Of a DNA stretch of 34,802 bases, positions 9,894-31,767 are shown piece after piece; the stretch's first letter is position 1, and the number at the start of each line of letters is the position of its first letter. Under the pieces are notes generated by a model. The model did no database searches. It worked only from the letters and a program-made list of their open reading frames with translations, and was not told the origin of the DNA. The stretch covers positions 1 to 34,802 of the forward strand of contig RGHD01000008.1 in assembly GCA_010024385.1 (NCBI GenBank), in the 5' to 3' direction. The position numbers and the translations under genes were made by a program. This stretch comes from Actinomycetota bacterium. GTDB taxonomy: Bacteria; Actinomycetota; Actinomycetes; Nanopelagicales; Nanopelagicaceae.

Positions 9894-10304
9894 TCAACTG
9901 CCGAAACGGCGTTGTCGTAGTGAGTAGGCACGAAGAGCACGTAAGAAATCCACCCGGCGAAAATCTGGCCAATACGCCTCACAAAAGTAAAACTCAGATA
10001 AGGCGCTTTGCCACAAAAGGAAACCACCAAGGCGTTGTTCTCCAGATGTTCTAATGAGCAGCTCTGGATCTGGTTGGCCTGCGGTATATAAAAACTTAGA
10101 AACCTCATCAGCAGTCAAATTCTCTTTAGCTTGATTAAGAGAATGTCCTGACTTTTCCTCTTCCCCAAGATATGACTTCACGGCATCAACAATTTCGCGC
10201 CGGCCCCCATAACTAATAGCCACGTTTACTTCAACGCCATCATTACGGATGGGCTTTAGCCCAGCTAGTTTTTCTGAAAGCCAGAACAACTCGACGTTCT
10301 GCAA
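9894..10304 (-). pseudogene. 5'-truncated (2Z,6E)-FPP synthase/UppS-type cis-prenyltransferase remnant
   Basis: Only the C-terminal half: [21 protein letters not shown]...[36 protein letters not shown]...[24 protein letters not shown]. The N-terminal DGNxRWA catalytic motif is absent; the region upstream is DUF3817 coding sequence. Confidence 0.85.
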
Positions 10305-14108: not shown

Positions 14109-15722
14109 ATGTCTCAAAACACCCCAATTAACGCATCAGCAAAGGCCCACACCCACAAGGAAATCATGATCATCCTGGGCGGCCTTATGACTGGAATGCT
14201 CCTTGCAGCTCTTGACCAAACAATCGTTTCAACAGCACTTAAAAATATTGTTGAAGAATTTGATGGTCTCAACCATTACACATGGGTAGTCACCGCATAC
14301 CTACTTACATCAACGGCATCTACTCCGTTATATGGAAAGATTTCAGATATTTATGGCCGTCGTATTGTCTTCCAGTTCGCAATTGTTACCTTCCTAATAG
14401 GTTCATTCCTAGCTGGTGCTTCACAAAACATGGAGCAGTTAATTGCAACTCGCGCACTACAGGGTCTTGGTGCTGGCGGTTTGATGGCGCTTACTTTCGT
14501 CATCATCGGTGACATTGTTCCTCCCCGCGATCGCGGTAAGTACCAGGGTTATTTTGGCGCTGTCTGGGGCTTGTCTTCAGTTGCCGGTCCACTTCTAGGC
14601 GGATTCTTCTCTGATCATCAAACAATTCTTGGAGTTACTGGATGGCGTTGGATTTTCTACATCAACCTACCTATCGGAATTGCATCACTAATAATTACCT
14701 CAGCTGTTCTACACATCCCCAAGGTCAAGCGCGAGCATTCCATTGACTACTTAGGTGCTCTATTAATGGTTGTCTCTGTCTGTTTAATACTACTTTCAGT
14801 TTCAATCTATGGCCCTCAATATGGTTGGGGCGATAGCCGCACAATCATGTATGCACTCATTGGTGTAATCCTTGCTGTGCTCTTTCTGATGTGGGAGGGC
14901 AAGGCTAAAGAGCCGATCCTGCCTCTCTACCTCTTTAAAAATCACACTTTCTCTATCACTTCACTCTTAGGTGCAGTAATTGGTGCTGGAATGTTTGGCG
15001 CAATCGTGATGTTGCCCCTCTATTTCCAGGTCGTAAAGGGATATAGCGCAACTGAAGCTGGGCTAAAACTGATACCGCTTATGCTTGGCATAGTTTCAAC
15101 TTCAATAGTCTCAGGCAAAATGATTTCAAAGCATGGTCACTACAAACGCTTCCCAATCATGGGAACAGCGATTATGACCGTTGGTATCTTACTTATGACA
15201 CGATTGCAGATTGATACGCCTTATTGGCAGATTTCAATTTATGCGATCTTGGTTGGCGCTGGCCTTGGCCTTTCAATGCAGACCATTGTTATCGCGCTGC
15301 AAAATGCAGTTGAATTCAAAGATATGGGTATTGCAACTAGTTCTAATACTTTTTTCCGCTCACTCGGATCGGTATTTGGAACTGCGATCTTTGGAAGTAT
15401 TTTGACTAACCGCGTTGTGCACTATATGTCTTCAGGTTTTGGAGAGTTAGCCAAAACAAATCCAAGCGCACTTGCTAACTTTGATACTGCACAACTAGAA
15501 GTACTAACAACTAACACCGCAGTGCTAAAAACATTCCCACCATTAATTAAACAGACTGCACTTGAGGCTTTCGTGAACTCCTTCCACATCGTCTTTTATG
15601 CAGCAGCTCCAATAACTGCCCTGGGATTATTGCTGGCGTTTATGTTGCGCGAGACACCCCTTCGCACATCTCAGGACTACGCCGCAGCACGTGAAGATGC
15701 AGCTGGAGAATCACTGGGTTAA
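14109..15722 (+). CDS. MFS drug exporter, DHA2 (EmrB/QacA-like) family
   Basis: [44 protein letters not shown], about 14 TMs, 537 aa. Confidence 0.92.
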
Positions 15723-16945: not shown

Positions 16946-17785
16946 TTAGTCGTTGCCGCGCAAGATTGAAAGCAGGCGCAGAACTTCTAGGTATAGCCAC
17001 ACGATTGTGACCATCAAACCAAAGGCAGCTCGCCATGACTCTGATTCTGGAGCACCGGCATTGATTCCCTTTTGAATTTGATCAAAATCTAGAATCAAGA
17101 AGAAGCTTGCAAGAACCATTCCACCTGCAGCCATAATCAAACCAAGGCCACCGATGTTATAGATGCTTGCACCAAAAAATGAACCAACAAATGAAAGCAG
17201 TGCCAGTACTAAGTAACCGATTAGTGCAGTCATGAGCACCTTGGTGAACTTAGGTGTCACGCGGATGCGTCCGCTCTTATAAGCAAAAAGCATGCCTGTG
17301 AAAGCACAGATAGTTACGATGATTGCTTGGCTAACAATTCCTGCATATGCAGAGTTGTAGATGTTGCTAATTGTTCCAAGTGCTAAACCTTGAAAAGCTG
17401 CATATGCAATTGCTAGAGCAGGCTTAACGGTTTTACTAAAGCTGTTGACCATTGCAAGTGCGAAACCACCAAAGACACCGAGCAACATTGCCCCGCCGCC
17501 AAGGTTAAGTGTCCATGCAACCGCCCCAACTGCAACTAGGACTGCAAATAAAATTCCTGTGCGAGTGACTACATCGTCAATCGTCATACGACCTGTGCGC
17601 ATCGATGATGCAGCAGGTGCGTTATAAAGTTCTTCCATCGCTGCTGGGTCTGAGTTAATTGTGCTCGGATCAAATGCAGCGTATCCACGCTGATTAAACG
17701 CCCGTCCTAAAACAGGGTTTGAACTGCGCATAACTTTTCTCTCCTTTTGTAGTGCCACCAGAACCTCTGGTGGTTTGCCATTCAT
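16946..17785 (-). CDS. Bax inhibitor-1/YccA family membrane protein
   Basis: SNPVLGRAFNQRGYAAF, seven-TM pattern, AFGLMVTIVWLYLEVLRLLSILR. Confidence 0.9.
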   Translation of the reverse strand: MNGKPPEVLVALQKERKVMRSSNPVLGRAFNQRGYAAFDPSTINSDPAAMEELYNAPAASSMRTGRMTIDDVVTRTGILFAVLVAVGAVAWTLNLGGGAMLLGVFGGFALAMVNSFSKTVKPALAIAYAAFQGLALGTISNIYNSAYAGIVSQAIIVTICAFTGMLFAYKSGRIRVTPKFTKVLMTALIGYLVLALLSFVGSFFGASIYNIGGLGLIMAAGGMVLASFFLILDFDQIQKGINAGAPESESWRAAFGLMVTIVWLYLEVLRLLSILRGND

Positions 17786-25949: not shown

Positions 25950-28279
25950 ATGAAATCCAGCGGTTCTGGCGGTGCAGTAGCAGCAGATGATGCTGCTTTA
26001 CGTAGCGATGTCCGCAAACTGGGAGATTTGCTGGGTCAAACACTTGTGCGCCAAGAAGGCCCTGAGCTTTTAGCGCTCGTTGAAAATGTGCGCAAAGCTG
26101 TTCGCGAAGGCCAGGGCGAAGAAATACTCGCATCCTTATCTGTTGAAGATTCAGTGCAGTTAGTGCGTGCTTTTAGTACATATTTCAATTTAGCAAACGT
26201 TGCAGAACAAGTGCACCGCGCACGTGTCTTAGCCGAAGCTCGAGCTGATGGAGGATCATGGTTAGCACGCGCTGTAGACAAAATCGAAGCAGCGTTAAAA
26301 TCTCAAACACCTGGGCATGAACTAAACAGCGAAGAGATTTCTGGCTGGATTAATGAAATGTCAGTGCGTCCCGTATTCACGGCCCATCCAACTGAGGCAG
26401 CTCGTCGTTCAGTTCTGAGTAAATTAGGACAGGTTGCAGATTTACTTGAAGATGGACGTAATCCTTCTCAAGCAGATCGCCTGGCTGAAACTATTGATTT
26501 GCTCTGGCAGACCGATGAACTTCGTGTTGGCCAACCCGAACCACTTGATGAAGCAATGAATGCTCTCTATTACTTGGATGATTTGTTCCGTCAAACAGTT
26601 CCTGAAGTTCTCAATGACTTTGCACGTGAAATGAAGCGCATTGACGTTGTTGTTCCTGTGACAGCACGCCCGCTTTCTTTTGGCAGCTGGATCGGTGGAG
26701 ATAGAGACGGTAACCCAAATGTGACCCCACAAGTCACCAACGATGCGATGCTTCTACAGGTAGCTCACGCGATTCGCGTAACAATCGATGCAATGAATTC
26801 ACTGCGCCAAGTACTTTCAGTCTCAACAAGAATCATTGGCGCTACGCCAGAATTGACTGCTTCAGTTGAACAGGATTTAAAGCACATCCGCGAATTTGAA
26901 CCGCGTTTCTTGCGCCTTAACGCTCAAGAGCCTTATCGCTTAAAGGCCACAGCAATTGTGCATCGCCTTGCCTTAACTCGCGAACGCCATGCAAAAGGTG
27001 CGGCACATGTTGCCCATCGGGACTATGCAGATACAGATGAGCTTCTTAAAGATTTAATGCTGATGCGAGATTCACTTTTTGCTCATAAAGGTGAACTAAA
27101 GCACGCATTGGTTTTGCTCCGTTGCTAGAAACAGTTGCAGAACTGCGCGCAGCAGGTGAGATACTTGAAAAACTTTTAAGTAATCCCGCCTATCGCTCAC
27201 TTGTGGCACTGCGCGGAGATGTCCAAGAAGTGATGTTGGGGTATTCAGATTCGAATAAAGATGCAGGTATTGCAACTAGCCAGTGGGAAATCCACCGAGC
27301 GCAACGATCTTTACGTGATATTGCAATGAAGCATGGTGTGAAACTACGTTTGTTCCATGGTCGCGGCGGTTCTGTTGGCCGTGGTGGTGGACCAACTTAT
27401 GAAGCTTTAGTTGCACTACCTTGGGGCTCAGTTGATGGTCAAATCAAAATGACCGAACAAGGTGAAGTAATTAGCGATAAGTACGCCTTGGCTTCCCTTG
27501 CCCGTGAAAACATTGAATTAACTCTGGCCGCTTCATTAGAAGCAACAGTGCTCAACCGTGGACCACGCCAATCAATTGCAGATCTTCAAAGCTGGAATGA
27601 ATGCATGCAATTAATTAGTGATCGCTCATTTACTGCTTACCGCGCACTAGTTGATCACCCAGATCTACCTGCTTATTTCTATGCATCCACTCCTGTGGAA
27701 CAACTTGGAAATCTCTTCTTGGGTTCACGTCCATCGCGACGACCTGATGCAAGCAGTGGACTTAGTTCACTTCGCGCAATTCCATGGGTCTTTGGCTGGA
27801 CACAGTCACGACAGATTGTTCCTGGCTGGTTTGGTGTGGGATCTGGATTAAAAGCTGCTCGTGAAGCTGGCAAAACTGAAGTCTTACAAAAGATGCTCGG
27901 TGATTGGCACTTCTTCCACACTTTCATTAGCAACGTTGAAATGACATTAGCTAAGACAGATTTAACCCTTGCCCGCCGCTACGTTGAAACTTTAGTCCCT
28001 AAAGAACTTCACCATTTCCTCGATCAAATCCAGGCTGAGTTTGATTTAACTGTGGAAGAAATTCTCAAATTAACAAATAAGAAATCTTTGCTAGGAGATC
28101 AAGAAATTTTGGCTAGAACTTTGCAAGTTCGAGATGCCTATCTTTCCCCAATTCACTTACTACAAATCAACTTGCTCAAGCGCGTGCGCGATGCTGGAGA
28201 TTCTGCAGACCCACTATTGCGAAGGGCACTTTTGCTCACCATTAACGGCGTTGCTGCAGGACTTAGAAATACAGGTTGA
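25950..28279 (+). pseudogene. ppc: Phosphoenolpyruvate carboxylase with internal out-of-frame deletion (two ORFs: 25950..27128 and 27122..28279)
   Basis: N-terminal part has VFTAHPTEAARRSVL and SWIGGDRDGNPNVT; C-terminal part has [13 protein letters not shown] and [12 protein letters not shown]; central region between [13 protein letters not shown] and [12 protein letters not shown] missing and reading frame changes. Confidence 0.92.
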
Positions 28280-28855
28280 TTAAGAGTTGTAACGCGTTTG
28301 TGTTCGCTCTAAACCTTCATTAATCAAAGATTCAACAACATCGGCCCCACGAACGATAAATTCGCCTAAATCCTTTTGTTCCACTTTTGAAAAAGCTTTC
28401 AAAACAAAATCGCCTGGATCTTGTTCGCCCATAGGGCGACCTATACCCAAGCGCACACGGTAATACTCTGCCGTGCCAAAAGCTGAAGTCATAGATTTAA
28501 GACCGTTGTGGCCATTATCCCCGCCAGCGATTTTGGTGCGGATAGTTGCAAAAGGAATATCTAATTCATCATGGAGCGCGATAATTTTTTGTGGTTCCAC
28601 AGAATAAAAGTTAGCAAGAGCTTTAATTGGCCCACCAGTCTCATTCATAAATGAATGTGATTTAGCAACAATAACTGGATGTGCATCAACACCAACACCT
28701 AACTTAAAGGCTGCGATGTGTGTGCGGGATTTGTGTGAAGATAATTTAACGTTGTGGCGACGAACTAATTCATCAATGACCATCTGGCCCACGTTGTGAC
28801 GGGTGGCAGCGTATTTATCGCCTGGATTGCCCAGGCCCACTACCAACCACGTCAT
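28280..28855 (-). CDS. pth: Peptidyl-tRNA hydrolase
   Basis: LVVGLGNPGDKYAATRHNVGQMVIDEL, HDELDIPFATIRTKIAGGDNGHNGLKS. Confidence 0.96.
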   Translation of the reverse strand: MTWLVVGLGNPGDKYAATRHNVGQMVIDELVRRHNVKLSSHKSRTHIAAFKLGVGVDAHPVIVAKSHSFMNETGGPIKALANFYSVEPQKIIALHDELDIPFATIRTKIAGGDNGHNGLKSMTSAFGTAEYYRVRLGIGRPMGEQDPGDFVLKAFSKVEQKDLGEFIVRGADVVESLINEGLERTQTRYNS

Positions 28856-30626: not shown

Positions 30627-31676
30627 TTAGCCCTTCTTCTCTTTAGCTTCGGCGGCTTGTGCTGACTTGGAACCAGCGCGCTTTCGCATGACCCAACCTA
30701 ATACATTTCTCTGCTTGGCTCTGCCAACGCCAATCGCGCCTGCAGGAACATCTTCAGTAATGACAGATCCTGCGGCGGTATATGCCCCATCTCCCACTGT
30801 TAGTGGTGCAACCAACATTGTGTCGCTACCGATTCGGACATGATCTCCGATAGTGGTGTGGTGCTTTTCTACCCCGTCATAGTTAACAAAGATTGTCGCT
30901 GCGCCGATATTGCTGCCTTCTCCAATGGTGGCATCGCCAACGTAGGAAAGATGTGGGACTTTTGAGCCAGTTCCAACTGTTGCATTTTTCATTTCAACAA
31001 AAGCACCAGCTTTAGTTGCATCACCAAGGACAGTTCCTTGGCGCAAATATGTAAATGGACCAACTGTTGAGCCTTCACCAATGACGCTATCTACAGCGAT
31101 TGATTCAAGTACTGATGCGCCCTCTTTTACTTGGCAGTTGGTAAGGGTTGTTCGAGGCCCAATGGATGCACCTTGGGCGCGCTGATCATCTGTTGCATCT
31201 TTTTCTTCAACAATCTTTAGGAGCTCATCAGAATCATCTCGAATAATGCGGCCATAGCCAGTTGGGTCTGGGTGTTCGGCAGTTAAAACAGAGGCTGCAA
31301 ACTTTCCTGAATTGTGAGCAGTTATAAAGGCTGCTAGTGATTCACCAGTGAGCATGGGTGTGTCACCAGCTAACACCAATACTGTGCCTTTAGGTGTTGA
31401 GCCTGCGAGCGCTAATTGCGCAGCATGTCCTGTGCCACCACGGCGCTCTTGAAAGATAGTTGTAGCTTTTGGCGCAATATGAGAGATATGTTCTTCAACT
31501 AATTCACGGCCAGAGCCGACAACAATACGAACTTCTTTGGCTTTTAGATGATCAACTGCGTGCAAGACATGTCCAAGTAACGAACGTCCTGCAACGCTAT
31601 GGAGAACTTTGGCTTTTGCCGATTTCATCCGTGTGCCTTCGCCAGCTGCGAGAACGATCACGGTTTCTACGGTCAC
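30627..31676 (-). pseudogene. glmU: GlmU (bifunctional N-acetylglucosamine-1-P uridyltransferase/acetyltransferase) with in-frame internal deletion
   Basis: LAAGEGTRMKSAKAKVLH, AGDTPMLT, then EEKDATDDQRA joined directly to GASIGPRTTLTN...GPFTYLRQGT...NYDGVEKHHTTIG; 349 aa versus about 450-500 expected; EVNSG and NNRVQL region absent. Confidence 0.9.
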
Positions 31677-31692
31677 AAGTGAATCCTATCGG

Positions 31693-31767
31693 TGGCTCCG
31701 CCACCAGGTATCGATCCTGGACCCTGGGCTTCAAAGGCCCATGTGCTAGCCACTACACAATGGCGGA
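31693..31767 (-). tRNA. tRNA-Gln(TTG), including encoded CCA
   Basis: Reverse complement TCCGCCA TT GTG...CAC A TGGGC CTTTGAA GCCCA ... CCAGG ATCGATA CCTGG TGGCGGA G CCA; discriminator G. Confidence 0.95.

Follow-up and report, generated by a model that had tools for sequence, protein, structure and literature searches.

Does the bacterium from which this DNA came make a shortened GlmU, or was its glmU shortened only when the genome was assembled? The window, i.e., the whole 34,802-nt stretch of DNA that was analysed, contains a glmU reading frame of 349 aa. A first-pass annotation, made from the sequence alone, had read this gene as carrying an internal deletion and had left two explanations standing: a mis-assembly, or an unusual gene dependent on a second source of UDP-GlcNAc. 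The gene and its join are as follows:

30627..31676, minus strand: glmU, 349 aa, lacking 123 internal codons; GlmU models are its best NCBIfam matches, aligning to two separate stretches
31178..31179, no strand: blunt join in glmU, where 369 bp are absent in comparison with relatives

In a profile search, the GlmU model TIGR01173 aligned to the 349-aa frame as two blocks (model positions 2-161 and 286-451 of 452), skipping positions 162-285 (~124 positions). The score of 378.9 bits exceeded the cut-off of 366.85 only by summing both stretches, and the best-scoring GlmU model, NF010932, fell below its cut-off (471 vs. 611). In same-genus genomes with the whole gene, the GlmU model matched from position 2 or 3 to 451. 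Alignment with the closest relatives, G004 and the complete genome G015, showed that exactly 369 bp (123 codons) are gone between 31178 and 31179. The loss is blunt and in frame, no bases are shared at the join in comparison with either relative, and neither an N run nor a repeat marks it. The first-pass annotation had placed the junction at 31170-31179 and put the loss at about 120 residues with the frame preserved; on each of these points the alignments agree with it.

Protein alignment with G004 showed the two halves of GlmU to be uninterrupted and 99% identical to their counterparts. The gap sequence in G004 contains FIFEINSGVYAF...GELYLTDVI...GVNDRVQLAE..., and the 123 absent residues include EINSG, GVNDRVQL, and the first beta-helix turns; the blocks predicted to be missing, E-V-N-S-G and NNRVQL, are thus indeed absent, in the form in which the relatives carry them. 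What is lost is the end of the uridyltransferase domain together with the first beta-helix turns. As assembled, the uridyltransferase domain is therefore incomplete, lacking the active-site Asn segment (GVNDRVQL), while the left-handed beta-helix acetyltransferase domain is present (residues 169-333, corresponding to model positions 286-451) except for its first turns. The GlmU of Mycobacterium tuberculosis aligns to the window's glmU up to residue 182 and then again from 309. Since the alignment resumes only at 309, the active-site Asn239, a metal-binding residue, lies inside the gap, as had been anticipated. Asn239 belongs to the uridyltransferase pocket of M. tuberculosis GlmU, and mycobacterial GlmU is reported to be essential (PMC9105790). 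Directly upstream of glmU lies a tRNA-Gln gene (TTG; 31693-31767, minus strand); conservation of this stretch among more distant relatives is 95-98%, a level to be expected of a tRNA.

The gene is whole in the relatives. In G004, the nearest of them (96-98% DNA identity, 97-98% around glmU), it is intact, and G004 and G015 together carry an intact glmU at 93-98% DNA identity. Scanning one genome per species in the GTDB genome set gave 80 related loci. One of these (L185) was left out because its first half is absent: the match begins 387 bases from the edge of a contig that starts inside the gene. Each of the 79 scorable loci has exactly 369 extra nt between the two halves, and none shares the 349-aa form. 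The length of this part of glmU is therefore invariant in the group, the sole departure being the window's assembly, and uniqueness to one assembly is what an artefact would be expected to show. Searching the rest of the assembly for the missing 369-bp segment returned only short, chance matches.

The source assembly (G000) comprises 1.33 Mb in 99 contigs, and 725 kb of it were compared with the complete relative G015. Two genomes that naturally lose DNA at similar rates should show about equal numbers of losses and gains. However, the comparison gave 23 clean losses against 1 clean gain at 40-450 bp; larger clean events numbered 1 loss and 4 gains. Fifteen of the losses fell wholly inside G015 reading frames, and 7 of these 15 break the frame. 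The broken genes include three that NCBIfam names: rpoA (RNA polymerase alpha), leuS (leucyl-tRNA synthetase), and lipA. From their sequences, we take others among them to be glgB, an isochorismate synthase gene, and a gene for an ABC ATPase of the proV type. Loss of rpoA and leuS would be lethal to a cell, and a search for an intact copy of either gene elsewhere in the assembly found none. On contig C18, rpoA is frameshifted near position 17490 by the loss of ~187 bp, and the part missing from C18 was found at the end of contig C21 (positions 1-506; residues 1-168, 95% identity). The carB gene is divided between contigs C9 and C14. When 195 kb of G004 were given the same treatment as a control, no such losses were found, against 6.2 expected at the rate of the source assembly (P about 0.002). 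A few smaller in-frame losses elsewhere in the assembly may be natural indels.

Two further joins of this kind occur within the window:

27097..27098, no strand: join in ppc (phosphoenolpyruvate carboxylase); 391 bp missing, blunt, frame broken; relatives intact (vs. G004 and G015)
10283..10284, no strand: join in a gene of the uppS family (isoprenyl transferase); 381 bp missing, blunt; relatives intact (vs. G004 and G015)

Like the glmU join, these two are blunt, and none of the three has the shared bases that would signal a natural deletion mechanism. The 391-bp loss from ppc is probably the same assembly artefact as that in glmU. A more distant homologue of the uppS family (35% identity) is present on contig C3. 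We also considered a difference of ~1 kb near 28290 as a further artefact and rejected it: at 28278-28298, between ppc and pth, G015 has an additional ~1 kb that contains a reading frame of 282 aa, and G004 lacks it just as the window genome does. This difference is probably natural variation. Likewise, the window contains a gene for a 537-aa DHA2-family MFS efflux permease (14109-15722, plus strand) whose site is empty in the complete G015, probably a case of natural variation in gene content.

No relative shares the glmU loss, which is blunt and belongs with the many losses in this assembly that ignore both reading frame and essentiality; the 349-aa GlmU is therefore almost certainly an assembly artefact, the product of a mis-join in the draft assembly. 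Recurrence in unrelated essential genes regardless of frame, as found across the 725 kb compared, is likewise what an artefact would be expected to produce. The two outer portions of a normal, ~472-codon glmU would have been joined end to end and the intervening 369 bp left out, the assembler or scaffolder having mis-joined contigs over short gaps and left no trace of doing so; the presence of co-occurring strains could have aggravated such mis-joining. Points against an artefact are that the glmU loss is in frame, a one-in-three chance, and that its join bears neither an N run nor a repeat. About a third of such joins would be in frame by chance and would then, as in glmU, look like intact short genes. 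We infer that the organism itself has a normal bifunctional GlmU. The truncation is thus almost certainly not a real biological feature, and the first-pass description of the gene as carrying a deletion is probably untrue of the organism. Of the two explanations originally offered, mis-assembly is strongly favored by the many blunt losses across the assembly, in unrelated essential genes, and by their absence from the relatives and the control, while the unusual gene with a second source of UDP-GlcNAc found no support.

A specific form of the artefact, falling within the explanation just given, would be a chimeric join of two co-occurring strains, both with intact glmU. Identity to G015 shifts at several joins (e.g., from 92.3 to 98.7% at C18:17490), and across the uppS-family join identity to G004 drops from 96 to 80%; a strain mixture may therefore have contributed to some of the joins. 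At the glmU join, however, identity to the nearest relative changes only from 97.6 to 96.9%, so that a strain switch is hardly visible there, and we regard a chimera as a possible but doubtful account of this particular join.

Far less probable is a real, recent in-frame deletion in a strain or subpopulation that abolished uridyltransferase activity and kept the acetyltransferase. The preserved frame and the 99% identity of the remaining protein to the GlmU of G004 would be consistent with such a deletion, which would require a second source of UDP-GlcNAc. The search for another uridyltransferase, suggested with the original annotation, did find a nucleotidyltransferase gene at C57:9456, the strongest other match of that kind in the genome. 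However, we rejected it as a substitute, since relatives whose glmU is intact, including G015, carry counterparts of it, and nothing therefore points to a replacement. A real deletion would also leave unexplained why rpoA, leuS, and lipA are broken alike in the same assembly, and it sits poorly with the lack of length variation at this site in the relatives. That the strain truly has a GlmU reduced to an acetyltransferase plus a uridyltransferase remnant, with UDP-GlcNAc made by another enzyme, is scarcely credible.

The finding is mainly a warning. Although the source assembly has a completeness score of 99.6%, several of its core genes are short of roughly 60-430 bp at clean joins, and annotators would take these losses for genuine truncations or frameshifts. 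Any gene loss claimed from this assembly should be checked against relatives or reads.

With mis-joined contigs in draft genome and metagenome assemblies, the present assembly shares short, clean losses at blunt joins that ignore both frame and gene function and, in at least one case, a missing part that lies at the end of another contig. Bifunctional GlmU (models TIGR01173 and NF010932; for example, the M. tuberculosis enzyme, PDB 3spt) matches the 349-aa frame throughout two parts: residues 1-166, the nucleotide-binding part at the N terminus, and residues 167-349, the acetyltransferase part at the C terminus with its left-handed beta-helix. The frame differs from these enzymes in that the assembled sequence lacks the 123 residues between the two parts, among them the stretch that carries the active-site Asn.
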